In this document: piece after piece, positions 3,729-22,140 of the stretch | Layout of the letters: each line of letters opens with the position of its first letter | How positions within the stretch are numbered: the first letter of the stretch is position 1 | Virus record (IMG/VR): IMGVR_UViG_3300034980_000470 | Span: 1-31,675 of that record | Reading direction: 5' to 3' (one strand) | Length of the DNA stretch: 31,675 bases | Source: a virus | Notes under the pieces: model-generated | What the model was told of the DNA's origin: nothing | The model's database searches: none | Seen by the model: only the letters and a program-made list of their open reading frames with translations | Position numbers and translations under genes: made by a program

Positions 3729-3753
3729 ATGCCACGCTTATGGAGAAGTTGCT

Positions 3754-4050
3754 ATGGATGGCAAACGCCTGCTCCTTTTTACCGTGCTCGCCGCCATGTT
3801 TGTCGGCGGGTGCCAAACGCTTCCAAATCAATCAACCGCGCCGGCGACCTCTGATACAGCCGCGCCAGTTGTAGATCCAACCCAGTTCTTTAACGATGCT
3901 GGAGACTTCGCATCCAGCATTCTGCCTCCACCATGGAATCTTGTCGCTGGCGCCGCAATCGTGGCGATCGGTGGATGGTGGGTTCGTGGTCGCTCCATCA
4001 AGAAAAATGGCGGCGGTTCCGGAAGCCAAGATGAAGCATCTCAGTCCTGA
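3754..4050 (+). CDS. Lipoprotein with C-terminal membrane segment; spanin candidate
   Basis: ATG 3754 is preceded by GGAGAAG five bases upstream, which decides this start over the in-frame 3571. The 98-residue product begins with a textbook lipoprotein signal: a basic DGKR start, a hydrophobic stretch, then FVGG before Cys20. Gln follows the Cys, compatible with outer-membrane sorting in Gram-negative hosts. A Thr/Pro/Asp-rich linker of about 35 residues leads to a second hydrophobic segment (WNLVAGAAIVAIGGWWV, about 56-72) and a basic then Gly/Ser-rich tail. A lipid anchor plus a C-terminal transmembrane helix is the topology of unimolecular spanins, which fuse inner and outer membranes at lysis. 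The linker is short for that role, so the call is tentative. Confidence 0.6.
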   Translation: MDGKRLLLFTVLAAMFVGGCQTLPNQSTAPATSDTAAPVVDPTQFFNDAGDFASSILPPPWNLVAGAAIVAIGGWWVRGRSIKKNGGGSGSQDEASQS

Positions 4051-6745: not shown

Positions 6746-7159
6746 ATGCCTATAGAGAATGAGTTTGATCGCAAAGACCCAGAGAGCCGAAAGGTTCATG
6801 GCGCTCTTGATCGAGACATATCAGACCTTTCGGACGAATTGGCTGAAAAGATCGAATTGCCGGAGGGGTTTTCTATGACGGCCGACCCAACAAGAGATGA
6901 TCCTGGGGTCATTCGTGAGCAGCCAGATGTCCTCTGGCGCCCGGAATCGCCATTGGAGGGCAGTGATTTAGTCGATCGCAATCCATTCGCTGGAATTAAG
7001 GGGTCTCCTTCGGCACAAATACTTCCGGCTCAGTTGTGGCCTGCGGGTCCAGAGCGTTCTGAGGACCAGCAGAGTGTTCCGGAACTGCTCAAGGAAATCC
7101 TGGGGGAAATCGAATCCCTCCCGATTCGTGTCGCTAGCGCGCTAGAAGGTCTTGGTTAG
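6746..7159 (+). CDS. Hydrophilic hypothetical protein, probably helical
   Basis: I choose ATG 6746 (137 residues); a TTG at 6731 in frame would add five residues. The N-terminal half is strongly charged (Asp, Glu, Lys, Arg), including SDELAEKIELPEGFSM. The middle is Pro/Gly/Ser-rich and probably disordered, and the end (VPELLKEILGEIESLPIRVASALEG) is a good amphipathic helix. Such acidic, disordered, helix-ended proteins occur as minor scaffold or assembly helpers in phages, but I cannot identify the family. Its stop overlaps the GTG start of the next gene by one base. Confidence 0.5.
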   Translation: MPIENEFDRKDPESRKVHGALDRDISDLSDELAEKIELPEGFSMTADPTRDDPGVIREQPDVLWRPESPLEGSDLVDRNPFAGIKGSPSAQILPAQLWPAGPERSEDQQSVPELLKEILGEIESLPIRVASALEGLG

Positions 7160-8040
7160 TGGCTGCTAACCAGAACATCAAAAGAGACATCCTCGCTGGA
7201 ACCAGCCTTACCGTTGGGATCTACACAGATCGACACGACCGGGCGGTTCGTCGGTGTCGAATCAAGAATCTGCCAGTCAATGACTCGGCATTACCAACGG
7301 CACTGAACGATCTGATTGCCAGTGTCGGGACATTCCACCCACAGCTAACATCCCTGCCTTTATCCCGAGCACAGGTGACTCGGCATGGCATAGATTCGGC
7401 AACGGGAACGGCGACCGCGTGGGTCGATCTCATTTACGCCCGCGACCGGATCAGCCAGAGCCTTCCCAACGAGCCGGCCTTTACGGTTCCTGAGTCCCGC
7501 ACAACGATCGAGCACACACCAGTTTACTTTGAAGTGTTCGATGAGGATGGTAATGAAGTGCCTCTTGAGGACGGGCTCCCCGCCGGAATGCTGCACATCA
7601 TCGAAGGGCCTCATTACACAAATCAGACCGTTGGCGGGACGCCACCCAAACCAGAACCGTATATGTGGCCCCGCCACGTTGTGCAATTCTATCCGTATCA
7701 GGTGCGAACATCATCGCCGGCTGCCGATGTCGAAGAAGCAATAGGAAAAGTGAATAGCGAATCTTTCCAGATCGGAGAAATCGAGTTTGAACCGAACACC
7801 CTGAGATTCGACGGCTTGGACGTGACATGGACCAACAGGTGGGCGCCCGGAACTCCAGACGCGCAGATAATGGCGCTTTGTGAGTATCAATTTACGGCCG
7901 CGCATCATGGATGGTATATGCAAACCGTGAAGTGGGAGCAACTGGTGGGGCCGCCGGCCCCAGGCCAGGCGTCTGGTCAATGGCTTCCAATAAACGGCGT
8001 CCAGCACCCGACGATCGATTTCAACTCGGTGTCCTGGTAG
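7159..8040 (+). CDS. Virion-type hypothetical protein (GTG start)
   Basis: The protein has 293 residues and starts with GTG overlapping the previous stop by one base, with an AAGG about 10 bases upstream. It is beta-rich with no membrane segment. Recognisable blocks are a beginning with GTSLTVGIYTDRHDRAVRRCRIKN, a central TVPESRTTIEHTPVYFEVFDEDGNEV and a C-terminal AAHHGWYMQTVKWEQLVGP. The His/Trp pair in the last block is unusual but no enzyme motif is apparent. I do not recognise a named family. It opens a run of genes (7.1-12.7 kb) that looks like a tail or distal-virion cluster. From memory, several members of this cluster resemble proteins in Planctomycetota phage-like loci. Confidence 0.55.
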   Translation: MAANQNIKRDILAGTSLTVGIYTDRHDRAVRRCRIKNLPVNDSALPTALNDLIASVGTFHPQLTSLPLSRAQVTRHGIDSATGTATAWVDLIYARDRISQSLPNEPAFTVPESRTTIEHTPVYFEVFDEDGNEVPLEDGLPAGMLHIIEGPHYTNQTVGGTPPKPEPYMWPRHVVQFYPYQVRTSSPAADVEEAIGKVNSESFQIGEIEFEPNTLRFDGLDVTWTNRWAPGTPDAQIMALCEYQFTAAHHGWYMQTVKWEQLVGPPAPGQASGQWLPINGVQHPTIDFNSVSW

Positions 8041-8050
8041 TGAGAGACGA

Positions 8051-8722
8051 ATGCCCAGACGTGTCCTCAAAGCGGTCAACAACTGGAGCACTGGTTCCGT
8101 ATTCGGTGGCCACTTTCGTCTGCTCATTCAAGAGATGGCCGAGCTTTGCTTCTGGTTAGCACAGCGAAAAACCGACATTACGCGCGTACTGATGTCGCCA
8201 CCGCCATCACCGCGCGATGTTGGTGGCGGTGGAACCGCTCACTTTCCCGCAAAGATTATTTCTTCAGCGGTTCTGAAATCAGAGCCAGATGAAGATGGAA
8301 CCCCCAGAGAATGGATGTGGGAATATACGTTGAAGCGCGCTGTTATAGAACCCAACGAAGTGAACCCAGAAGAATACATTGTTATTGATGGAGAGCCTGA
8401 GTTTTCCGCGCTCAACCGATTTGAGTCTCACAACGACGGCAAGCTGCGAGAGGGCGTCGGTGTAGATACGAAATACCCAGAACAACCGACTGAAGGTGTC
8501 AAAATCCTGATGCGACCAATTATGAACGGCTGCGTTGTCGAGGTCGTGGACGAGTCGAGCTTTGTGTATATCGACCCCAAACAGGAGCCGCCGCCTGTCG
8601 TCGGGCCTACTTATAGATTTGAGGCCATGAACGCCTTCGATATTGAATGTCCACAGGAAGATCCTGGGGTAACAGGATTCTATGTTGGAGAGGATTGTCG
8701 TGGCGGGGGCAGAGTCCGATGA
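8051..8722 (+). CDS. Hypothetical virion-associated protein
   Basis: The protein has 223 residues. The N-terminus (about 1-50) is helical with RLLIQEMAELCFWLAQRK. After a Pro/Gly linker comes a beta-barrel-like domain, PAKIISSAVLKSE through EWMWEYTLKRAVIEPN, ending in GVKILMRPIMNGCVVEVVDESSFVYI. This strand pattern, a 'value of W-E-Y followed by a limit on V-x-V', reminds me of small barrels in planctomycete phage-like proteins, but that is recollection only. The Gly/Arg-rich end (CRGGGRVR) overlaps the start of the cysteine-rich gene by four bases (ATGA), implying translational coupling. Confidence 0.55.
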   Translation: MPRRVLKAVNNWSTGSVFGGHFRLLIQEMAELCFWLAQRKTDITRVLMSPPPSPRDVGGGGTAHFPAKIISSAVLKSEPDEDGTPREWMWEYTLKRAVIEPNEVNPEEYIVIDGEPEFSALNRFESHNDGKLREGVGVDTKYPEQPTEGVKILMRPIMNGCVVEVVDESSFVYIDPKQEPPPVVGPTYRFEAMNAFDIECPQEDPGVTGFYVGEDCRGGGRVR

Positions 8723-9765
8723 CAAGTGAAGTGTTGCAAGAATGTTGTGCGTGCCCGAAAGGCTGTTGTTCCTGCTTTGACTGTTGTTATGGGATTTGCG
8801 ATACGCTCAAAGTTACCATCACATGGAACACCCTGAAGTTTGACGTTTACCCAGGCTGTTGTGACGGTTGCACACCACCTCCCCTTCCTGGCCCTGGCAG
8901 ACATCTCCAGCCTGAACCGTGGGGCGGCGGTCCTGGCGGCGGCGAACCGCCACCGATTGAGCCTACAGATCCTTCGCTGCTAGTAGCGCCCGTTGATGTT
9001 TGTGGGTGTGGTCCCAATCCCGGCTACGAGCCTCGTTGCGGACTTGTTGTTGGCGGCTGCGGAACGCGGACGGCAACATACTCATACTTTTCTTGCGACC
9101 CGAAGGGGAAAGCTGTATGGCACCGAGATCCTGCATCTGGAGGTGATGATGTTGGACCGGGATGTAAAGAACATGACCTGCCTTGGGCGATGGAAAGGAA
9201 TTGTGCCGATGGGACATGGAGATGGCGGGGAATTGACCCGAAACCATGTGTCGATGAGTGTCACTACTGTAGGCACCAATGGGGTCTGATCGGGGGCGTT
9301 TCTGGCCCAATCGGCAGCGTTCAAAATCCTTGCTGTGGGCCGATTGAAAGGACAGTCGATGGAGTGGTCGTCGGCCAGTATGCGTGGGGGTTAAATTGCG
9401 CCTGTATTGGTGCCTGCCCCGGCGGCATAGATTGTTGCGAGGAGTTGCACCTTCCAAACCTTCCCACACCCAGACCAGGGGAACTTGATCCAGAGGACTG
9501 GGATCTGCCGCCTTGGATAGCGCTGGGGACATCTGGAATGTGCATCGGGTACACGCATGAATGCGAAAGCGCGACTATGGAGTGTCGATTGGCTTTTCAG
9601 TCAGCGATAGGTGGAGACGATTGCCCTTGTACGGAAGCGACATCTCAAGATGGGGGGCCAAAGAAGATTGGGATTATGGAGAAGGAGCGAATCACTTGTT
9701 TCGACGACTACGATGAGACGGAAGATGTTTTGAGATGCTGTCCAGATCCGGGGGTCGTGTGCTGA
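8719..9765 (+). CDS. Extremely cysteine-rich virion-associated protein
   Basis: I start at ATG 8719 (348 residues) because it makes a four-base ATGA overlap with the previous stop; an in-frame start at 8647 would extend into the upstream gene. I count 38 cysteines, about 11 percent of residues. Twelve are packed into the first 51 residues (CCACPKGCCSCFDCCYGIC, then a short beta segment DTLKVTITWNTLKFDV, then CCDGC). A Pro/Gly-rich linker follows, and then spaced pairs such as CGC, CVDECHYC, CC, CAC and CPC. There is no signal peptide or membrane helix. The protein could be disulphide-bonded, metal-binding (Zn or Fe-S), or cross-linked in the virion. I know no matching family with confidence. 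Confidence 0.65.
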   Translation: MTSEVLQECCACPKGCCSCFDCCYGICDTLKVTITWNTLKFDVYPGCCDGCTPPPLPGPGRHLQPEPWGGGPGGGEPPPIEPTDPSLLVAPVDVCGCGPNPGYEPRCGLVVGGCGTRTATYSYFSCDPKGKAVWHRDPASGGDDVGPGCKEHDLPWAMERNCADGTWRWRGIDPKPCVDECHYCRHQWGLIGGVSGPIGSVQNPCCGPIERTVDGVVVGQYAWGLNCACIGACPGGIDCCEELHLPNLPTPRPGELDPEDWDLPPWIALGTSGMCIGYTHECESATMECRLAFQSAIGGDDCPCTEATSQDGGPKKIGIMEKERITCFDDYDETEDVLRCCPDPGVVC

Positions 9766-10355
9766 TGGATTACGCCTTTTTCAAAAACGATGCCAATGGA
9801 CAGATTGCCGTCTTCCACAAGAACAACGTGCCCGAAAATGTGTCCCTTTCGGAGCCGACGACAGATGAGATCGTCAAGAATCTGGTCTGGAAACATCGCA
9901 AATCACTAATGTACCGATTTCAGCATGGTGAAGACGTAGGGTTTGACAAAGCCGAAATCATGTCTGCCAAGTTCCGCTTCTATCGGGACGATGACAAAAT
10001 TGCGATACGAGACGCGACGACGGCGAACGGAGCCGAGCAGCCAACCGCCGAAGAAGTCAAGGATTACATCCTGGCAAAGTGGGACAACGTAGACCCCAAT
10101 TACAAAGAGATAATGGGCGACCCCAAAAGAGAAGAAGCTCTTGCGGCAGCCAGCCGGAACAGATCATGCTCAAATCCGATCGTGTGGTGGCTCGGCGCGC
10201 GGTGGTACGGTGTTCCTGCACCGATTCGTTGGTGGAACCGGGGTTTGGCGGCGGTGTTTCCTAACCGCCAGAAGCCTGAGAATTATCGTGGTTGCGGGTG
10301 TTTGGTAAAGGTCAAGGCGGCATGGATGGCTCTGAAGTGGCTATGGAAGGCTTAG
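9765..10355 (+). CDS. Hypothetical protein with Trp-rich, GCGC-containing C-terminus
   Basis: ATG 9765 overlaps the stop of the cysteine-rich gene by one base (TGATG), giving 196 residues. The first 130 residues are charged and mixed alpha/beta (DYAFFKNDANGQIAVFHKNN, later KFRFYRDDDKIAIRD). The C-terminal 60 residues are different: rich in Trp, Arg and Gly (PIVWWLGARWYGV, RWWNRGLAAVFPNRQKP) and ending with GCGCLVKVKAAWMALKWLW, a GCGC site followed by an amphipathic helix. The Trp-rich end could interact with membranes or with the cysteine-rich neighbour. No enzyme motif is visible and I cannot name the family. Confidence 0.55.
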   Translation: MDYAFFKNDANGQIAVFHKNNVPENVSLSEPTTDEIVKNLVWKHRKSLMYRFQHGEDVGFDKAEIMSAKFRFYRDDDKIAIRDATTANGAEQPTAEEVKDYILAKWDNVDPNYKEIMGDPKREEALAAASRNRSCSNPIVWWLGARWYGVPAPIRWWNRGLAAVFPNRQKPENYRGCGCLVKVKAAWMALKWLWKA

Positions 10356-11450: not shown

Positions 11451-12653
11451 ATGGCTAATAAAACTTGGGTGGGCGGAACCACGCCCGTCGCGCAGGTATC
11501 GACCCTGACCCCAGGCGGAACGATTGAGGCCGGGGACGTATTTAACGTCATCTTGACGGATGAAAACGGAACCGCAACAACGGTCGCCGTTACTGCGACA
11601 GGAACCTCCGTTGCGCAGACAGTTGCGGACATCGTTTCAGCCTGTGGAAGCTCTACCAATTCGCTGTTTACAGCACTTACTTGGACAGACAGCACCAGCT
11701 TGGTGACGGTGACGGCGAAATCGCCTGGGGTGCCTTTCTACCTAACAGAGACGACAACGGAATCTGGCGGCGGGAGCGCCGACGACCAGACATTTGCCGT
11801 CGCCACGACGACAGCGAACGCGGGGCCGACCGACTGGAACACGGCAGCGAATTGGGACGGATCTGGTGTGCCTTCGAGCGGAGACGCCGTGTTCATCGTG
11901 GCGAAGGCCGGCGAGCCGAGCTACGACATCCGTTATGGCCTAGACCAATCCGCTGTTCAGATCGAAAGCCTGGAGGTAAGCCCTAGCTGGAAGGGCCGGA
12001 TGATCGGAGATCCAGAGAACAACTTCTACTTGAAGATCAGCGTAGATCACTCGTCCCCAAAAACCACGATCATCAACACCGAGACCGCGAAGGTATGGCT
12101 GTATGGGACAATGGAAACGGTCAACGTCATCGGAACCACATCCGGATTGACGGCTGTCAAGCTAAACGGAGACATTGACAACCTGCGAGTCTTAGGAGAC
12201 AAGGCGATCGGTCGCATCACGGTCGCTGACTCCGCAACGCTGGACAACGTGTATATGACCGCTTCTCGCGCCGAGGTCTACGTCGGCACATCCGTTAGCA
12301 GCCTTGATCTTGTGGAAATGACGGCTGGTTATATGGAGCTTGCTTCAACTGCAGGAGCATCGGGGCAAATCAATCTTGCAGGGGGCACCCTGCGACTCAT
12401 CGAGGGGACTGCCAACAAGATTGAGGTTCGTGGCGGCACACTGAGCTATGAATCCAACGACGACCTAGACGACGGGTCGTCTCCCACCATGACCGTATTC
12501 GACGGCACGGTGGACTTTACCAAGAATATGGCGGCACCAACGCTGACGATTACCTTGCTGGTGCAGTATGGGGGCCTGGTGACGGATGACTCTAATTTGG
12601 GCAACCTTGCCGTAAGCACCTACACCCAATACAGCGGTAAGAAGCGAATCTAA
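11451..12653 (+). CDS. Putative tail or fibre protein with beta-helix-like repeats
   Basis: The protein has 400 residues, with AGGAG 7 bases before the ATG. The N-terminal 110 residues contain repeated Thr/Ala strands (DVFNVILTDENGTATTVAV and SLVTVTAKSPGVPFYL). The centre has a DWNTAANWDGSGVPSSGDAVFI segment, the N-W-x-G-x-x-P-x-x-G-D-x-x-x-I pattern that caps many repetitive beta-solenoid surface proteins. From about residue 180 onward short strands alternate with turns (for example GDIDNLRVLGDKAIGRITVADSATLDNVYM), consistent with a right-handed beta-helix. Such proteins often bind host surface sugars. From memory the N-terminal plus N-W pattern is common in planctomycete phage-like loci. 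Receptor binding is inferred, not shown. Confidence 0.55.
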   Translation: MANKTWVGGTTPVAQVSTLTPGGTIEAGDVFNVILTDENGTATTVAVTATGTSVAQTVADIVSACGSSTNSLFTALTWTDSTSLVTVTAKSPGVPFYLTETTTESGGGSADDQTFAVATTTANAGPTDWNTAANWDGSGVPSSGDAVFIVAKAGEPSYDIRYGLDQSAVQIESLEVSPSWKGRMIGDPENNFYLKISVDHSSPKTTIINTETAKVWLYGTMETVNVIGTTSGLTAVKLNGDIDNLRVLGDKAIGRITVADSATLDNVYMTASRAEVYVGTSVSSLDLVEMTAGYMELASTAGASGQINLAGGTLRLIEGTANKIEVRGGTLSYESNDDLDDGSSPTMTVFDGTVDFTKNMAAPTLTITLLVQYGGLVTDDSNLGNLAVSTYTQYSGKKRI

Positions 12654-12667
12654 GGGGCGATACGACG

Positions 12668-15511
12668 ATGGCCAGAAAACGAAACAGAAGGCGGCCAGGC
12701 GGTCAAATGTATGGCCCTGGAATGCCAAACCAGGATTTGCCCCCTGATCTTCAGAAACAAGCTGATGATATTAAAGGCAAGCAGCCATCTGTCGGGCTGG
12801 CGCCAGCAGCGACAGCGCCTCCGGCGGCGGACGTTACAACTTTGACACCACAGGAAGCTGAGATAGAGGCGGCGGTTGCAAGAGATCGGCTGGGCCGCCG
12901 AGAAGCGGCCAGGATTGGAAAAGAGCGCCAGGATCGCTTATCGGAACTTGCCGACCCGAATCTTATGGGTCCGAAGTTGCCAAAAGCCGAAATCGATAAG
13001 CGCTATGAACAGCAGACCCAGGCCGAGGTTCAGCGGCGGTTGGATGAGAGCAAGGGTCTGCGCGACAAACGTATTGAAGCAGAAAGACAAGCAGATCCTC
13101 GGAGACATGGGACAGATCGAACACTGCCTGGAATCACGCTTTCAGAACACGACCAGCGGCTCGTCGGCCAGCTTGGTGGGGAGCGCTATAACACTCTTCT
13201 GAAAATCATTGATGGCGGTATGGTGCCGGAATCGCTTTACAGCGACCCAACCTCGCTTCGTATTCTTCAAGAGATATGGCCGCAGATAAAGGGTGCCAGG
13301 CGACGGAGGCGTCAAGAAGAGGCCAGAGAAAGGTTACGGCCCGACCCCGCTGCAGTTGAGGCGGCGCAGCAGAAGTTGACCGAGCAGCAAAGGACAAGGG
13401 GTCAGGCGGCGTCGAAACTCATGGGAGAAGGGGGCCCCATGGGCGAAGAGGAAGCTGCTTCAATCGGCAAACAGCTTGGGGGTTACTACGGAAGCGCCCA
13501 GGGCTTGGCCGACATGGTGGGGAAAACTCCATTTGATGCGCTGCAATCGGTGTTGGTCGCTAATTCAGGCATGACCCTGGAAGAGGCATTCGAGAGCACC
13601 GATCCAGACATCCAGAACGCCATCCTTGTCTTCGACAGGGCTAGAAAAAGCCAGAAGATAGAGATGGCGCACCAGTCGCGCCTGGCCGACATTGAGATAA
13701 ACAAAGCAAAAAGAGAGTTGGCCCAGAACCGCGTCTACGACATGGATCGCAGGCGCATGGAGCTAAACGAGGCCAGGGGCGTTGGCCCCGGAGACCCTGG
13801 CTACCTTCCTACCAGTTCTGAGAGAATCACTCAGAGGGAAAGGATAAACAGTTATTTCCGCGACAGGCGGCTGGGAGATAGGGGAAGGCGGAACAAGCTA
13901 CCGCCAGTCGGGACAGCGCCGAAGGTTCCGTCCGGAATCATTAGTCGGAGCGAGGCCGAGCACACGACCGAGCTTCCAAACGGACAGATTGTTAGGGAAG
14001 CAGACGGCAGGCACAGCATGATCGTTTCCGTTGACGGGAAACGCCAAGCGCTTCCGATGCATCGGGATGTATACGGAAACCTGAGACCAGATTCGAGCGC
14101 AATTGAGAGGTTCGGTTATCACCAGAAGTTGGCCCAGTCTCCTGTTTTGCGTAAATCAATGATAGGGGAAATTACTTCCGATGAGTTTCATCCTTTCCAC
14201 GGGGATATGAGAAAGACCCTAGAAGAGCGCAGCGTGTTGGTTGCAAACGGTGGAAATGACGAAATGGCAGCCAAGCGAGAAAAAATTCGAGCGGCCAGGG
14301 GTAAAGGCCAGCTTTCTTCGGAACAGGCAGGCGCCCTGTATGAACGCCTAGACGAGGAACTCGACGACCTTCTCAAGGAACACGACAAACGAATTAGCGG
14401 CCTGTTGTGGGAGTCCGACCAGTCGGACCTCGACTACACGAGCGTTATGGATGAGGTAAGAGCACGATTAGAGAAACAACGGGAAGGAAAGGACGATTTC
14501 GGCGCCGACCAGGCCGAGCAGCTCACCCCAGAGGAGATGCGTAGAGCGGTAATAGAGGAAAGAACGAATTTGCGATCTGCATTTTCCCTCGGTCCTGAAA
14601 GCGGGACAGAAACAAACCCAGAGCTTGATATCGCTATAGGTGAGGTTGAAGATGAGGCGGGCGGCAATTTTGTTACTGGCCTGCTTCCGGCGCGAGGATT
14701 TACATCGCGGCTTAGCAAATCGCCCGTCCCCTTCCCCATCGCGCCTGGCTTTTTACCTACCGTAGGCGCGGCCTCTGACCTCGGATGGGCGGCCTATGAC
14801 CATTTAAAGCCAGGGGCAGAAGTGACCGGGCAAGTTGTCGCCGGCAAAATCACCAGGGCCATCGGCTCGGCTTGGCAAGGTGTTAAGGGAATTTGGACCG
14901 GCCAAGAAGGTTCACTACCGCGCCAAGATGTTGATCCCAACGCATACCAAAAATCAATGGACAGACACGGCGGCATGGGCGGCCCAAGACCTCGGAAAAC
15001 TAATGAATGGAGAAATGTGGTCGATACCCCCATCGGCGCGAACGATGCCCACCAGGTTGACAGCTATCTGATCGGCCTCGCTGACTACCACCCGTTCGGC
15101 TCCAAGATAAGTCCAGAGGACGTTCATGGGATAATGGGTGAAATTTACCAGGTTCTTGGCGGCAAGGTGTCGGAGAGAGACGTTGTAGCCATTCTTGGCC
15201 ACACAATCAATACTTACGGATGGGAAATCGACGAGAGTGCCGACCCTATGCACGGTGAGAACTACAGAGAAGACGTTATGGAGAACTCGCCAGGCCCGCC
15301 AGTAAAAAGCACTTCCGATGCGGTGTATTACGGAGAGACAGAAGATACGCCGGGCGGTCCCGTGGGACACGGTATCGGGATGGCCGTAGACAAGAGCGGA
15401 TTCAAATTCTTTGGACAGTTTGCTTCCGGTCAACCGTTTGCCGGCACCCTCACGGACCCAGGTGGTCGTGCGGTTGGTGAAATTGTGAACGGGGAACTCG
15501 TACAGGCGTAG
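12668..15511 (+). CDS. Large internal virion or ejection-type protein
   Basis: The protein has 947 residues; AAGGGG sits about 10 bases before the ATG. A basic, disordered start (RKRNRRRPGG) is followed by a long charged, coiled-coil-prone region (about 60-400) rich in Arg, Glu, Gln and Ala. A less charged region with mildly hydrophobic stretches follows at about 675-735 (including FPIAPGFLPTVGAASDLGWAAY). The C-terminal 150 residues form a distinct folded-looking domain (DVHGIMGEIYQVLGG to GWEIDE) plus a Gly-rich beta end. No catalytic motif is seen. Its size, helical character and place immediately before the giant polyvalent protein fit podovirus internal or ejection proteins that leave the capsid with the DNA. 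The function is inferred. Confidence 0.55.
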   Translation: MARKRNRRRPGGQMYGPGMPNQDLPPDLQKQADDIKGKQPSVGLAPAATAPPAADVTTLTPQEAEIEAAVARDRLGRREAARIGKERQDRLSELADPNLMGPKLPKAEIDKRYEQQTQAEVQRRLDESKGLRDKRIEAERQADPRRHGTDRTLPGITLSEHDQRLVGQLGGERYNTLLKIIDGGMVPESLYSDPTSLRILQEIWPQIKGARRRRRQEEARERLRPDPAAVEAAQQKLTEQQRTRGQAASKLMGEGGPMGEEEAASIGKQLGGYYGSAQGLADMVGKTPFDALQSVLVANSGMTLEEAFESTDPDIQNAILVFDRARKSQKIEMAHQSRLADIEINKAKRELAQNRVYDMDRRRMELNEARGVGPGDPGYLPTSSERITQRERINSYFRDRRLGDRGRRNKLPPVGTAPKVPSGIISRSEAEHTTELPNGQIVREADGRHSMIVSVDGKRQALPMHRDVYGNLRPDSSAIERFGYHQKLAQSPVLRKSMIGEITSDEFHPFHGDMRKTLEERSVLVANGGNDEMAAKREKIRAARGKGQLSSEQAGALYERLDEELDDLLKEHDKRISGLLWESDQSDLDYTSVMDEVRARLEKQREGKDDFGADQAEQLTPEEMRRAVIEERTNLRSAFSLGPESGTETNPELDIAIGEVEDEAGGNFVTGLLPARGFTSRLSKSPVPFPIAPGFLPTVGAASDLGWAAYDHLKPGAEVTGQVVAGKITRAIGSAWQGVKGIWTGQEGSLPRQDVDPNAYQKSMDRHGGMGGPRPRKTNEWRNVVDTPIGANDAHQVDSYLIGLADYHPFGSKISPEDVHGIMGEIYQVLGGKVSERDVVAILGHTINTYGWEIDESADPMHGENYREDVMENSPGPPVKSTSDAVYYGETEDTPGGPVGHGIGMAVDKSGFKFFGQFASGQPFAGTLTDPGGRAVGEIVNGELVQA

Positions 15512-15528
15512 CCAGGATCGGAAACACG

Positions 15529-18500
15529 ATGCCCCAAGAAGTCGCCACACCAGAATGGGATTACACCAAGGTCCAAGCCTACATCGACAAACAGGCTCAC
15601 CATCAGCCCGAATCACGCCGAGCGGTTGTTCGGCCCAGCGCCAAAAAAGAAACCGCCACACCAGAATGGGATTACACCAAGGTCCAAGCCTACCTCGACA
15701 AACAGAAGACGACTGATGGTGAGGATGAGGGTTACGTCGGGGGCACAGTAAAGCCCGCGCTCATTAGGAGTTGGGCTCGGCTGAGTCAGATTTATTTGAC
15801 TGCGAAAAACCAGTTGTCACCAGATCCAAACTTCGCAAGAAAAATGGTGGCGAATAGACAGCTTGCCCGAACCCCATACGGAGCAGAACACACAAGGAGT
15901 ATGGAAGAGTTTCATGAGTCTGAGGGTTTGGATATGGTCAAGGAACTCTTAGATAACCCCCATGTAGTACCAGGCGTTCTAATGGAACAGATCGCGCCTG
16001 TGTTGGGATTTCAGTTGCCCGCTACGGCCGTAACGACGGCTGGCGGCATGGTCGCTGGCGCGGCTGCTGGCGCGGCTGCTGGCGCGGCTTTTGGCCCTGC
16101 GGCGTTGCCTGCTGCTGCGGTCGGTGCCAGGTTAGGTTCCAGGGCCGGGGCCATGGTGGGAGTGGGAGGTTCGTCGGCGCTTCTCGAAGGGGTGGAAGCG
16201 TTTTATTCCAAAATAGAAGAGGGGATCTTGGCCAAGGGTGGGGACATTGACAGCGCCGAAGATTGGGAAGATGCCTTGGGCGATGCCGAGTTAGTCCGCG
16301 CAGCGAAGGGTTATGCGCTTAAGTCTGGATTGCCGGTTGGCGCGCTTGATGCGCTCGGGTTTGGGGTGGCCGGAAAACTTTTGAAGGCTGCCAAGGGCGC
16401 CGGCAAAATAAAGAAGGCCGGTGCTGCTGCCGGCGAACTGGGAATTCAGTCCGGCACTGCCATGGCTGGAGAGGCTCTAAAGCAGCAGGTGACGGGAGAG
16501 ATAAGCGCGCACGATGTGGTGCTTGAGGGCTTTGCCGAACTCGTCCCCGGCGTTGGCGAAGTTGCCTTGGGCACGTCCATAGAGAGTGTTGGAACGGGTG
16601 GATTGCGCGCGACGGAGGTGCGAACCGCCCTTTCCGGATTAGCCAACGAACTCGTGAACGAGGCGTCCGAAATGACGCTAACCTCTCCTGCCGAAAAGAT
16701 TGCGAACATACCTGGCGATCCGAGTCGAAAAGAGATAAGAGGCATCCTCGGGGGGGAAGCCTACAAGCAACACCAGTCGTGGCTTAGTCAAAAACGCAAC
16801 CGAATCGCTTTGAAGGAAGCTGTTGCCTACCGCCTGGATGCTCGGGCGGTCGAGGAATCTGCCGCTACAGATCGTCGCAGGGCCATTGAGGCCGAAGCGC
16901 CCACCGAGGTTGCGCCCGCTGAAGTTGCGCCCACTGAAGTTGCGCCCACTGAAGTTGCGCCCACTGAAGTTGCGCCCACTGAAGTTGCGCCCACTGATGT
17001 TTCCCCCCCCGCCCCCCGCGCCGCCGAGGGTGCGGGTCGCCCCGTAGAATCTGTGCTTGACGAATACGGGGAGATAGACGAGGCAATCGACACTGCTGCC
17101 CGTGCTCTTGCCAGAGATGCGGATATGGGCATCACCAAAGATCGGGATCTGTCCTCCGTAGTGAGGGACGAAAATGGTGAGGTGATCGGTGCGCAGTGGA
17201 GGTCATTCGATGGCGACAATTACGAGTTTGATGTTGTAGTTGCCCCGGAACACCAAGGTTCAGGCGTAGGCAGAAGCCTTATCGATGACGGGATTGCTGG
17301 GTTCGATGAGCATTTGGAGTTCAATCCAGATGCGACGATGAGACTCTCCGTAACTTCCGATGTGTCTGAAGCCGCTCTTTCTCGCAGGGGCTTTGAAGTT
17401 GTCGGTGGGGACAACCGTATCAAGGTAATGGAACGCACCCCCCGCGCCGCCGAGGTTGCGCCGAAAAAGCCCGCGCCGAAGAAGCCTGCGCCGAAGAAGC
17501 CTGCGCCGAAGAAGAGGGAAGGTGACGAGGCGCGCTATTGGAAAAGTATTACCAGGAGGTCGCCGGGGTGGTCCAAACAAAAGGTTGATATTGAGGTCGG
17601 TGACGAGGGTAAAACGAAGAAATTCAAAACAGAAGCATTGGCTCTCGATGACTCATGGGCCATTACCCGTGGTGTTATTGAAATCAAAGGCGAGCTTGTT
17701 CCAATAGACAGGCGACATCTGGACGCTGGCGATTGGAAAGAACACAAACACAAAGAATGGAACTTAAAATACCTTCCCTCTGGCAAGCGCGTTGCCTCAG
17801 CATCAAAAACTAGGCTCAGGCATCTTTATCAGATGATTCAAGACGCGGGTCTCGCGTTTCCGAAAACGACTGCCGGTTGGCAACATATGCAGAAAGCGAA
17901 AAAGGGCGCTCTTTCGGAGGAAGCGCGCCATGTGGTGTCGGCCTGGGAATCCAAGAGCATGGCTGCCCTCCCCGACGACCTGCGCAAGCAGATTTTAAGT
18001 GTTGTTGAGGCCCCCGACCCCGGCATAACGGCAGACATGATTTTAGATTTGGCTGATTTGAAAGGGGCCCGTCAGGGCATGGAGATCATTAGGGGCCTTG
18101 TCAGGGAAGTGCCGGAGTTCGCTTACGACCCAATTTTCATTGTTGGCAACGACAAGAAACTTGTGTTTCGGGACCACTATGTTTATCGACTCGAACCGTC
18201 AATTTTCAATATCGACGCAGACAGCCTCGCGGTGGGACAATCGGTCGGTGTCAACCTGCCTGACCTGGGCATAAAAAAAATCACCTCCAAGGCAGAGGTC
18301 ATCAAAAAGGCCCTTAAGGTTGCGGGGTATAAGGCTTCTCAGGGGGCTGCGCGTAAGCAGGAAATTATCGACGCGATTCAGTGGGACCAGAAAAAGACGC
18401 AGGCGGGCATTGTTGCCAAGCCCGCGCCGGCCAAAGAAGAGGTTCTGCCGAGTGGTGCCGGTGTGGTCGCCGCGCCTTCACGAAGCTACTCGTCAGACCT

Positions 18501-21500
18501 TGCGGCCGTCAGGGGGAAAAAAGATCGCGCCGCTGATGCCCAGACCAGGAATTACAGGGCCAAACGACGGGCTGAGCGAGACGGGCAAAAGGCCCGCGAT
18601 GCGGACAGCATTTACGATCTCATTGAGGACGTTTCTAAAAAAATGGGGATGGGCGCCCCGAGCGTAGATCGAACCAGTCGAAGGTCGTGGGCGGCAGCCT
18701 GGTACGACCCACACACCGAAGCGGCGAGAATCAAGTTTGGATCATACGTCGGGCCGTTTTTGCACGAAGTCGGACACCACCTTCACAAGTTACTCTTCAC
18801 GCTACCTGCAGCAGAGCGTGCCGGCCAGAAACACCTTGGGCCAAAAGAACGACGAAAAATCAAATCGGACGAGCTTCCAAAAGAGTGGCGTCCTGATCTT
18901 CATGTTTTGGGGAAGGATCTTTACAAAGACAGAACACCTTCGAGTGGGTACGAAGCAGAGGGGTGGGCCGAGGCGATTAGATTTCTTTTCGTAGATCCCG
19001 ACCATTTCAAGGAGAGAACGCCCAAGCTCTATCAGGAATTGACAACGATGTTGCAAGCGGAACACCCACGAACATGGGATCTTATCGAACAAGGGCGACA
19101 TCGAATTCAGGATTTTATTCAGGCAGCCGAAGACGATCCGGTCGCACATCGAATCTACCGGGGCAGAACAAATTCTTGGTTGAAGACAACGCTGCAACAG
19201 AAGTTAACCTGGTTTCGGACCAGGTTCACCGATCGAAACGATTTTGCGAACTACTTGCAGGCTGTTTTGGGCCTCACGGGCAGAAAGGCCGACCCCAAGT
19301 TAGCTGCAAGGTTAACACCGTCCAAAGACGTTCACTTGCGGGCGCTGCGAAGCCCAAGCATGATCGTGGGAACGATGGAGGAAATCGTCCAGGGTAGTGG
19401 GCTGTTTCCCTACGACGATCCCACCGGCTCCTGGGACGAGTTTGTCAAAAGTAATCCCGACCTTAATGTAAAAGACCGGAGTTCACTTAGAGATCGACTG
19501 GCCTTGATAAAAAACGACGTGGAAATGGAGCGATTTGAAAGCTATATGGTCGCTCTGCGGGCCAAAGAAAAGCGCAAACAGGGCTTTAAGGTATTGGGAA
19601 CGCCGGGTGACGCCAGCATGCTGACCGATTTCTCTGACAAGAGTCTCGACGAGCACCTGGCCGATACGGAAAAGGAATACCCGCACTTCGCTGAGGTTGC
19701 AAGGTCGTTTTCGGAATTCGATAGGTGGGTTATCGGTTGGATGGTACACAGGGGCATGTTGACCAGACAAAGCGCGAAACTAATACTGGATGCCAACCAA
19801 CACTACATCACATTCTCTCGAATGCCTCTTCGAGATGTAGCCAGTCGTGGTTGGTCAGGTGGGCTCGGGTTTGCAAATAAAACCCCCGGACTAAAGCGGT
19901 TCTTCGACGATCGCGGGGAGGCGATGGTGCCGCCGCTCGATGCATATTTAGGCCATCTTATGCATGTGTTGGGGCAAATAGAAAACAACGAGGTTGTCAG
20001 GGCGTTGGGTCAGTTGGATCAAATTGTTGAGGGTACCGGAAGGTTTTTCACCGATCCCGGCCCATACATGAAGCCGCACTTTGTTTCCAAAGATCAGGTG
20101 GTGAAGCATGTTCTTGATCAGCTTGGCATTGGAATCGACGGCGAAGGTGACCGGCAGATTCCTTCTTGGTTGGAAAACATTCCCAAAGAAGAGGTCGAGG
20201 AAATAATTGAGGCCTTTCACACCATTGAGGGCGGCTCGTTTTGGAAAACCAGCATCGATCCGTCGATGGACAGGCACAAGATTTTCTCGTATTTGGACGA
20301 GAATGGAAAACGGGTTTATCGCCAGGCAAGCAACGACAAGAATGGAGAAATGCTGTTCTCTTTTCTGAAAGGGTTGAATAACCCCAAGATTGTGTCTGGT
20401 TGGATGAAATTTTTGACCATTCCTCGCCGGGTTCTCATGAAGGGCGCAACGGAACTAAATCCATCGTGGTCGATCCCCAACCTGATTCGAGACACGGTGT
20501 CCGCAATAACGATGTCAGAGGGAGATTTTCTCAAACTACCGTTGGCCGATGGCCATCGTATGCGGGGTATGAAAACGGCGTTCTTGGGCGGCGACTTGTC
20601 GAAAGTAATGGCTCTTAGCGGCGGCAATATGTCGGGCCTTTATCACGACGCATGGGATGGGTCGCATGTCAGCGAAAAAGCTCTACTTGGCCCCAGGCCG
20701 AAATTGATGGGTCTTATCAAAGGGGACAGGGCTTCGGCTGTCTTGGGCGATTTGCTGACTCTTGGTCCGATATCCAGGTTGAATCGCGCCCTCGAGCGCA
20801 TGAACCGGCTGGCCGAAGCGGCGATTGTTCTGGACAAGAATCGGGGGCGTCTCGAAGACTATCGTGCGCATAGACGTGAGAAAAACGAGCTTATAGCAAA
20901 CGCCGAAAGCATACCGGAAGGGGAGTTTTTTCGTCGTCGAAAGGAGCTTGAGGAAAGGGAAGCCACGATGTGGAGTGCCTGGGATGTCATGCTCACCTCC
21001 GGTCAGGCATCAGCAGACATCACCATAGACTTCCATCGTGGCGGAACGTGGATCAAGGAGATGAACCAGTTCATTCCCTTCCTTAACGCCGCCGTCCAGG
21101 GCACCAGCAAGCTCGCGCGGTTTATTTCCAAAAACCCAGGGGCCGCACTTGGAAGAATCTTCACCATGACGGTCGTTCCCAGTATCGCACAAATCCTACT
21201 TGTGTGGGACGACGAAGAGTATTGGTCAAAGCCACAATATAGCCGTGACCGATACTACTACTTTCCTATTGGACGCGACAACAACGGAAATCGTGAATAC
21301 CTAAAGATTCCGAAGCCGTATGGTCTTGGCGTGTTTGCCATTGCAACAGAACGGTCCATTACGAGAATGATCGGCATGGACCCGATCACCGGCAAGCATA
21401 CCGGAGACCCCGGCGTTGATGTGTCGGGCACGGTATGGAGTCTAGTAAAAGAATTGCGTCCACAGCTAAGCATTGCGGCCCTGCAGCCATTTATGGAAGT

Positions 21501-22140
21501 GATGGCCGGCAATCAGGGCTACGACTACTTCCGAAAACAATCCATCGTCAGTTTCAGGGATCGGGATCTCCCCAAGAGTCTCCAGGGGGCATCCAGGTCG
21601 TCTGAGTTGGCCCGGTATTTCGGAGAAATGCTGGACTATGCGCCGGCCAAGATAGACCACCTCATATATGGGTATTTCGGCGGCCTGGGCAGAGATGTCG
21701 TGGGAATAAGCGATCGCGTCGTGCGAGCGGTTTCTTCAGAGGCTCGCAAAGGAGAGCCGCTTGGGTTTTCAGACTGGCTTATTGTTCGTCGATTCCTCGA
21801 AACGGGAACCACGACTCAACACGAAGCGGTACGCCGGTTTTACGACGACTGGGATGAGATCAGATCAACGTATCGCGGACTAAAGGCACAAACCAGCGCC
21901 GATGCAAGGCGACAATACGCCAAGACCAACAAGCTCAAGCTGTCGCTCTACAAAGGCTACAGCCAGTCCAGCAGAACCATGTCAAAATATTTCGGAAGCC
22001 TCCGAAAGCTGTACGATGCTACGGACATGGATGCTTACGAGCGAGAAAAGAAAATGAATGATCTACAAGAGGCAATCATAAAGCGCGCCCAGGCAGTGCA
22101 ACAGTATCACAGAAGAATAAAGGAATCCGTCGATGAGTGA
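15529..22140 (+). CDS. Giant polyvalent ejection protein with GNAT and zincin domains and LPD38-like region
   Basis: The protein has 2203 residues. In order: two copies of a 17-residue motif with WDYTKVQAY (6-22 and 43-59); an Ala/Gly-rich hydrophobic region (about 165-215) able to touch membranes; seven APTEV-type repeats (457-491); a GNAT acetyltransferase domain (about 515-640) with the acetyl-CoA loop QGSGVG at 576-581; APKKP repeats (644-662); an unassigned domain (about 665-990); and a zincin region with HEVGHHLHK (HExxH at 1079-1083) and a downstream GWAE whose Glu1148 could be the third metal ligand. Further on, NPSWSIPNLIRDT (about 1644), FIPFLNAAVQG (about 1847) and YLKIPKPYG (about 1924) match the LPD38 polyvalent-protein domain as I recall it. 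Polyvalent proteins are injected with DNA and act in the new host. Targets of the enzymes are unknown. Confidence 0.8.
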   Translation: MPQEVATPEWDYTKVQAYIDKQAHHQPESRRAVVRPSAKKETATPEWDYTKVQAYLDKQKTTDGEDEGYVGGTVKPALIRSWARLSQIYLTAKNQLSPDPNFARKMVANRQLARTPYGAEHTRSMEEFHESEGLDMVKELLDNPHVVPGVLMEQIAPVLGFQLPATAVTTAGGMVAGAAAGAAAGAAFGPAALPAAAVGARLGSRAGAMVGVGGSSALLEGVEAFYSKIEEGILAKGGDIDSAEDWEDALGDAELVRAAKGYALKSGLPVGALDALGFGVAGKLLKAAKGAGKIKKAGAAAGELGIQSGTAMAGEALKQQVTGEISAHDVVLEGFAELVPGVGEVALGTSIESVGTGGLRATEVRTALSGLANELVNEASEMTLTSPAEKIANIPGDPSRKEIRGILGGEAYKQHQSWLSQKRNRIALKEAVAYRLDARAVEESAATDRRRAIEAEAPTEVAPAEVAPTEVAPTEVAPTEVAPTEVAPTDVSPPAPRAAEGAGRPVESVLDEYGEIDEAIDTAARALARDADMGITKDRDLSSVVRDENGEVIGAQWRSFDGDNYEFDVVVAPEHQGSGVGRSLIDDGIAGFDEHLEFNPDATMRLSVTSDVSEAALSRRGFEVVGGDNRIKVMERTPRAAEVAPKKPAPKKPAPKKPAPKKREGDEARYWKSITRRSPGWSKQKVDIEVGDEGKTKKFKTEALALDDSWAITRGVIEIKGELVPIDRRHLDAGDWKEHKHKEWNLKYLPSGKRVASASKTRLRHLYQMIQDAGLAFPKTTAGWQHMQKAKKGALSEEARHVVSAWESKSMAALPDDLRKQILSVVEAPDPGITADMILDLADLKGARQGMEIIRGLVREVPEFAYDPIFIVGNDKKLVFRDHYVYRLEPSIFNIDADSLAVGQSVGVNLPDLGIKKITSKAEVIKKALKVAGYKASQGAARKQEIIDAIQWDQKKTQAGIVAKPAPAKEEVLPSGAGVVAAPSRSYSSDLAAVRGKKDRAADAQTRNYRAKRRAERDGQKARDADSIYDLIEDVSKKMGMGAPSVDRTSRRSWAAAWYDPHTEAARIKFGSYVGPFLHEVGHHLHKLLFTLPAAERAGQKHLGPKERRKIKSDELPKEWRPDLHVLGKDLYKDRTPSSGYEAEGWAEAIRFLFVDPDHFKERTPKLYQELTTMLQAEHPRTWDLIEQGRHRIQDFIQAAEDDPVAHRIYRGRTNSWLKTTLQQKLTWFRTRFTDRNDFANYLQAVLGLTGRKADPKLAARLTPSKDVHLRALRSPSMIVGTMEEIVQGSGLFPYDDPTGSWDEFVKSNPDLNVKDRSSLRDRLALIKNDVEMERFESYMVALRAKEKRKQGFKVLGTPGDASMLTDFSDKSLDEHLADTEKEYPHFAEVARSFSEFDRWVIGWMVHRGMLTRQSAKLILDANQHYITFSRMPLRDVASRGWSGGLGFANKTPGLKRFFDDRGEAMVPPLDAYLGHLMHVLGQIENNEVVRALGQLDQIVEGTGRFFTDPGPYMKPHFVSKDQVVKHVLDQLGIGIDGEGDRQIPSWLENIPKEEVEEIIEAFHTIEGGSFWKTSIDPSMDRHKIFSYLDENGKRVYRQASNDKNGEMLFSFLKGLNNPKIVSGWMKFLTIPRRVLMKGATELNPSWSIPNLIRDTVSAITMSEGDFLKLPLADGHRMRGMKTAFLGGDLSKVMALSGGNMSGLYHDAWDGSHVSEKALLGPRPKLMGLIKGDRASAVLGDLLTLGPISRLNRALERMNRLAEAAIVLDKNRGRLEDYRAHRREKNELIANAESIPEGEFFRRRKELEEREATMWSAWDVMLTSGQASADITIDFHRGGTWIKEMNQFIPFLNAAVQGTSKLARFISKNPGAALGRIFTMTVVPSIAQILLVWDDEEYWSKPQYSRDRYYYFPIGRDNNGNREYLKIPKPYGLGVFAIATERSITRMIGMDPITGKHTGDPGVDVSGTVWSLVKELRPQLSIAALQPFMEVMAGNQGYDYFRKQSIVSFRDRDLPKSLQGASRSSELARYFGEMLDYAPAKIDHLIYGYFGGLGRDVVGISDRVVRAVSSEARKGEPLGFSDWLIVRRFLETGTTTQHEAVRRFYDDWDEIRSTYRGLKAQTSADARRQYAKTNKLKLSLYKGYSQSSRTMSKYFGSLRKLYDATDMDAYEREKKMNDLQEAIIKRAQAVQQYHRRIKESVDE
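15544..15705 (+). repeat. Duplicated 51-bp coding motif (two copies)
   Basis: The bases 15544-15594 and 15655-15705 are identical except for one base (ATC versus CTC, Ile to Leu). They encode the same 17-residue peptide containing TPEWDYTKVQAY. Near identity at the DNA level indicates a recent in-frame duplication. The peptide lies at the extreme N-terminus of the polyvalent protein, where a packaging or capsid-docking signal would be expected; that role is inference. Confidence 0.85.
16897..17001 (+). repeat. Seven tandem 15-bp repeats encoding APTEV
   Basis: Seven consecutive 15-base units, the middle four identical (GCGCCCACTGAAGTT), encode an APTEV linker immediately before the GNAT domain. 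The first, second and last units carry single or few substitutions. The array is likely to vary in length through slippage. A run of eight C bases follows at 17004-17011. Confidence 0.9.
17458..17514 (+). repeat. Tandem 15-bp repeats encoding APKKP
   Basis: Three full 15-base units and a 12-base remnant (unit GCGCCGAAGAAGCCT) encode a lysine/proline linker immediately after the GNAT domain. Together with the APTEV array it brackets the acetyltransferase domain with flexible linkers of opposite charge. Confidence 0.88.

Follow-up and report, generated by a model that had tools for sequence, protein, structure and literature searches.

The window analysed here, a virus record of 31,675 bases from a podovirus-like contig, contains on its plus strand (8719..9765) a gene for a protein of 348 residues, 38 of which are cysteine. 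Judged by sequence comparison, genes of this kind are an undescribed, fast-changing family that recurs in many uncultivated phages, flanked by the same two partner genes. The explanation that we favour on balance is that the protein is a hypervariable, cysteine-scaffolded tail adsorption protein, the centre of a three-gene set with an adaptor and a CGC or CGGC partner. Its probable place is in the part of the tail with which the phage holds on to the host cell.

The cysteine-rich gene and its setting

On the minus strand of the window a terminase, a head-tail adaptor-like protein and major head proteins were recognised. The plus strand begins with an Erf-like annealing protein and a replication protein, and the structural genes follow. 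Within 3751-4050 a frame starting at an internal ATG begins MDGKRLLLFTVLAAMFVGGCQ, which resembles a lipoprotein signal, and continues with a second hydrophobic stretch; this is a possible lysis gene.

An earlier note on this DNA had counted 38 cysteines in 348 residues, with 12 in the first 51 arranged as CC, CxC and CxxC, and translation of 8719-9765 bears this out. The cysteine content is 10.9% against an average of 0.7% across the other proteins of the window. The binomial probability of at least 38 cysteines is about 1e-32, which excludes chance, and the remark that the protein is far outside ordinary phage structural proteins is supported. No N-terminal hydrophobic segment was visible on inspection, in agreement with the claimed absence of an export signal. 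Metallothioneins are short chains with about 20-30% cysteine and almost no aromatic residues; the present protein, with its length, its cysteine content and several Trp, Tyr and Phe residues, does not correspond to them.

The gene is coupled on both sides, as had been noted: the ATG at 8719-8721 overlaps the TGA of the previous gene (8720-8722) as ATGA, and the TGA at 9763-9765 overlaps the ATG of the next (9765-9767) as TGATG. An alternative in-frame ATG at 8647 would give 372 residues; the family signature, however, begins at 8719. This signature, MTSEVLQECCA (8719..8751, plus strand; MTS-x(5-6)-CC-[CA]), is common to four relatives. When 17 genomes were searched with the pattern MTS-x(4-7)-CC-[CA], five matches were obtained, one each in the window and the four relatives, and all five sit at the start of the cysteine-rich gene.

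Relatives and synteny

Direct homology searching with the 8719-9765 protein found no relative in PHROGs, Pfam, NCBIfam, PDB sequences, 50,697 phage records or IMG/VR. The three proteins of the window set and a compact relative (L181) likewise had no match in the 50,697 phage records, Pfam, PHROGs or NCBIfam, and literature searches turned up no account of the family. Relatives were instead reached through the terminase, which matches 61 IMG/VR loci, the larger of these records being read whole or nearly whole. Gene calling followed a simple longest-ORF rule, and DNA identity served to decide which loci were nonredundant. One record (L002) overlaps the end of the window at 99.6-99.8% DNA identity, apart from a local insertion of about 120 bases (window 20907-20946) within the gene for a 2203-residue protein, and stops short of the cysteine-rich gene. 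Most of the other terminases are 42-48% identical to that of the window.

In all ten clade contigs that cover the region, a cysteine-rich gene (19-70 cysteines, 4.6-9.6%, 281-755 residues) comes after a homologue of the 8051-8722 gene, with one small gene intervening in G009. Two more distant records (G015 and G016) have no cysteine-rich gene. The large terminase subunits of the ten contigs are 42-44% identical, yet their cysteine-rich proteins are barely alignable, most of them failing to align with one another even at an E value of 1e-3. Membership of the window protein in the family therefore rests on position, the N-terminal signature and partner homology, a full-length alignable relative being absent among the sequences compared.

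The upstream neighbours are themselves conserved. Two genes upstream, a tail-module protein of 293 residues (7159..8040, plus strand) gave profile matches in 10 of 10 related contigs, and its homologues keep the same place in related podovirus-like contigs. The upstream member of the set (8051..8722, plus strand) encodes 223 residues with a W-Y-W-E / N-x-x-E core; nothing matched it in Pfam or PHROGs, and nothing significantly in the PDB. An iterated profile collected 34 ORFs at E<1e-20, and homologues directly precede the cysteine-rich gene in many podo- and siphophages, with other genes intervening at some loci. In two siphophages (L205 and L195) the genes run from the tape measure through a protein of about 280 residues and the 8051-like protein to the cysteine-rich protein and then the GCGC partner; in L205 the genes for tail completion, tail terminator and major tail proteins stand before the tape measure block. 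A tape-measure gene just upstream is a feature of these two siphophages, and none was recognised in the window itself. Because the set follows the tape measure in both, this gene order supports a tail-tip or adsorption role, as well as the idea of a three-protein assembly, as far as synteny can indicate function.

Downstream, a protein of 400 residues (11451..12653, plus strand) has homologues near the cysteine-rich gene in L195, L131/L134, L128, L113 and L117, and for this reason is assigned to the same exchangeable region. Beyond it are two very large proteins, of 947 (12668-15511) and 2203 residues (15529-22140), with no cysteine at all; the latter has LPD38 and GNAT-like regions. Their giant counterparts in relatives, of up to 4448 residues, have zero, one or two cysteines.

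The partner proteins

The next gene (9765..10355, plus strand, ATG at 9765) encodes a partner protein of 196 residues of a GCGC-motif family, defined by homologues and an AF2 model. As the earlier note had observed, the product closes with a GCGC motif: it ends ...YRGCGCLVKVKAAWMALKWLWKA, and its C-terminal end reads GCGCLVKVKAAW. The C-terminal domain (residues 138-196; 10176..10352, plus strand) has the order hairpin, helix, loop, CGC, helix according to alignment A4 and the pLDDT profile. The invariant positions of A4 are W142, G149, P151, R155, G176, C177, G178, C179, K184 and W187. The GCGC motif (10290..10301, plus strand), a dithiol motif of the CxC kind, is thus invariant across the 17 aligned partner sequences. 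Many partner proteins also have C-x2-C pairs in their N-terminal part.

Mean pLDDT of the partner model is 69.5, with block means of 82-94 from residue 141, and the CGC immediately precedes the last helix. This predicted position at a helix start would suit thiol or metal chemistry. The model gave no Foldseek match at E<=0.001 and no match to a thiol oxidoreductase or thioredoxin-like protein, the best VIA Z being 2.0.

Pattern and profile scans (the latter with a shortened GCGC alignment) for the domain RWxGxPxPxR...GCGCxxxLKxxW found about 21 nonredundant loci with a true homologue. The gene upstream is cysteine-rich (3.0-13.9%) in approximately 21 of 21, wherever that gene is intact. The pair in the window is therefore one case of a recurrent arrangement. 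A search for the GCGC domain in prophages of 398 genomes of the Nitrosomonas phylum and 5 of another phylum, run without a positive control, found none.

In most clade relatives the next gene instead carries GLGDxIAKxTxAxGIKPCGGCKxRQxxLNKxFPY (alignment A1); GLGD is absent from the partner in the window. Scanning viral contigs with A1 gave more than 570 such places, of which 80 were kept, with 57 nonredundant viral loci among them. A gene with at least 3.5% cysteine lies directly upstream in 41 of the 57, in one case (L150) fused to the motif in a single frame, whereas 11% of the remaining genes at these loci are as rich in cysteine (Mann-Whitney p 4e-18); these figures carry an ascertainment effect, A1 having been built from genes adjoining cysteine-rich genes. 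The GCGC test is cleaner, since its pattern scan is blind to the upstream gene.

Some of the exceptions among the 57 are Flavobacteriaceae-type phages (L123, L132, L155 and others, with Nonlabens phage P12024S as L190), in which a sigma-70 region 2 gene precedes the GLGD gene and a cysteine-rich neighbour is lacking. The domain also occurs in bacteria, and the idea that it is exclusive to cysteine-rich proteins was rejected. In Nitrosomonas (L188:7024-10611 and L189:3855-6212) a GLGD...CGGC protein stands after a subtilase-family peptidase and before several short proteins, some of which start MNMPGFTAE or similar; this cluster, with the same motif as the phages, looks like one for peptide maturation. 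The phages without a cysteine-rich gene and the Nitrosomonas gene beside a peptidase count against a dedicated role for GLGD everywhere. Right after cysteine-rich genes, the domain is in some phages (L114, L117, L125, L133, L134, L149 and L185) fused to glycosyltransferases or phosphoribosyltransferase-like domains: GT25 plus sulfotransferase-like in L114, GT4-type in L117 and phosphoribosyltransferase-like in L134 and L185.

Conservation and variability

Wherever homologues align, cysteine is the most conserved residue, and the cysteine-less homologues that would have spoken against the earlier note were not seen. Cysteine identity against the average was 0.85 vs 0.38, 0.73 vs 0.33, 0.76 vs 0.34 and 0.90 vs 0.73 in the aligned proteins.

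The close relatives L241 and L242 show how the gene changes. Their neighbouring proteins are 95-99% identical, whereas the cysteine-rich protein is 71% identical with 29 gap columns, and its dN is 0.24 against 0.005-0.033 elsewhere. Identity is 98% in the first 112 and the last 55 columns and 53% in the middle; within this variable middle 27 of 35 cysteine columns are shared, while non-cysteine positions are 48% identical. The dS of the gene is also raised (0.84 vs 0.13-0.26), suggesting segment exchange. The pair L139/L147 behaves in the same way, so that in both pairs (the window has no close relative covering the gene) this is the fastest-evolving tail-module gene, with conserved flanks. 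L140 and L168 have different cysteine-rich genes in otherwise similar surroundings.

Cysteine counts in the family are even in 24 cases and odd in 33; even counts are thus not in excess, which gives no indication that all cysteines pair within the chain. Among the spacings, CxxC and CC are over-represented (z about 6). Lys (1.9%) and His (1.2%) are scarce in these proteins and Gly, Thr, Ser and Pro abundant, a composition that in our reading would speak for an extracellular scaffold rather than for metal storage. For the compact relative L181 (13 sequences) an all-beta, barrel-like domain is predicted with a mean pLDDT of 85. Foldseek/VIA comparison of this model with the PDB gave weak and mixed rows, the best (Z 6.2) being a de novo beta barrel, and no fold family is therefore claimed.

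Proposed role and alternatives

These observations can be brought together as follows. The fold of the 8719-9765 protein would be held by its cysteines and not by a large hydrophobic core. The 8051-8722 protein would be the adaptor fixing it to the tail, leaving the cysteine-rich protein as the exposed, fast-changing part that touches the surface of the host. The downstream partner, a small protein with CGC or CGGC at a helix start, may handle thiols, either pairing or isomerising them or loading or holding metal. Through synthesis and assembly in the reducing cytoplasm the cysteines of the cysteine-rich chain would stay as thiols, with the bonds locking after lysis. The interpretation in the earlier note is partly supported: synteny upholds its placing of the gene in a virion cluster, here as part of the adsorption apparatus, and its three coupled genes are borne out as a unit by the cysteine-rich genes of unrelated phages, which have homologues of both neighbours on their flanks.

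That the frame is untranslated can hardly be credited. Its synonymous codon score (-0.01, against 0.01 to 0.14 in other genes) is no better than that of other frames, and codon usage alone does not support it; but the overlaps with both neighbours and the N-terminal signature common to four relatives argue for a gene. In two close family pairs dN/dS is 0.15-0.28, and these members must be translated and constrained; with the conserved cysteines, values so far below 1 support translation of the window frame too. We consider it distinctly unlikely that the protein, though expressed with tail genes, is a non-virion one, an assembly chaperone or an anti-host factor. The zinc-finger-like cysteines of the small partner proteins would agree with such a role, but the close linkage to the tail genes of podo- and siphophages would not; nor would the pattern of conserved ends and variable middle, which is usual for surface-exposed tail proteins.

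An unlikely explanation is a metal-binding tail-tip protein that would take up several Zn ions or Fe-S clusters on its cysteines while still in the cytoplasm, with the CGC/CxxC partner delivering the metal. It would extend the principle of the four-cysteine tail-tip Fe-S clusters known in lambda gpL and the RcGTA hub (PMC10721106, PMC7296036). The enriched CxxC and CC spacings, the zinc-ribbon-like C-x2-C pairs of many partners and the place of the set after the tape measure in siphophages are in its favour. Cysteine numbers from 9 to 70 with variable spacing, the scarcity of His and the lack of alignment to gpL-like families in Pfam are against it, and gain and loss of cysteines in the variable middle fits a scaffold better than fixed metal sites. 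It is highly unlikely that the protein is a chemically modified substrate (S-glycosylated or cross-linked, for example) to which the partner domain recruits a modifying enzyme. The glycosyltransferase and phosphoribosyltransferase-like fusions of the GLGD domain speak for such a role, as does the Nitrosomonas setting; most partners, however, including that of the window, have no enzyme domain, and the genes next to 8719-9765 yielded no recognisable modifying enzyme.

If the preferred reading, a cysteine-scaffolded adsorption protein, is correct, a wider proposal can be made tentatively: many uncultivated tailed phages may carry a hypervariable host-binding protein of this kind together with their own small thiol-chemistry partner (CGC or CxxC) for assembly in the reducing cytoplasm. 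This would be an antibody-like solution, a disulphide framework carrying changeable segments, which is not known in phage tails. A recurring tail-gene set around a protein of 3-14% cysteine points to an unstudied route to variable, stable host-binding surfaces, and with it to the question of how disulphides or metal sites could arise in phage proteins that stay inside the cell until lysis. With the partner motifs, such genes can be looked for in other metagenomic phages.

Comparison with known systems

Lambda gpL and the RcGTA gp13 hub have a tail-tip [4Fe-4S] domain held by four cysteines (PMC10721106, PMC7296036). Their cysteine-dependent domain lies at the tail tip and is encoded just after the tape-measure and distal-tail genes (PMC10721106, PMC7296036); the present system may resemble them in this, the cysteine-rich gene standing downstream of the tape measure in L205 and L195. 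Theirs, however, are four conserved cysteines in one family, whereas the cysteine-rich set is hypervariable, has 9-70 cysteines and shows no sequence match to them; the three-gene set also has different neighbours and occurs in podovirus-like phages too. The window protein has no match in Pfam, PHROG or NCBIfam that would place it with gpL, and no set of four cysteines is common to its 38 and those of the family. Sequence and cysteine number both disagree, and membership of the gpL-like group therefore does not fit.

Cys-Gly-Cys peptides can serve as minimal disulphide isomerases. The partner resembles the CxxC/CGC thiol-disulphide oxidoreductases in its invariant CGC (or CGGC) and in the CGC at a predicted helix start, but its model gave no thioredoxin-like match and its activity is putative. 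We know of no phage adhesin that combines 5-14% cysteine with a co-occurring CGC/CxxC partner gene. With receptor-binding and tail-tip adhesins of phages in general, the cysteine-rich family shares fast evolution with conserved ends, a setting among tail genes and a beta-rich prediction.
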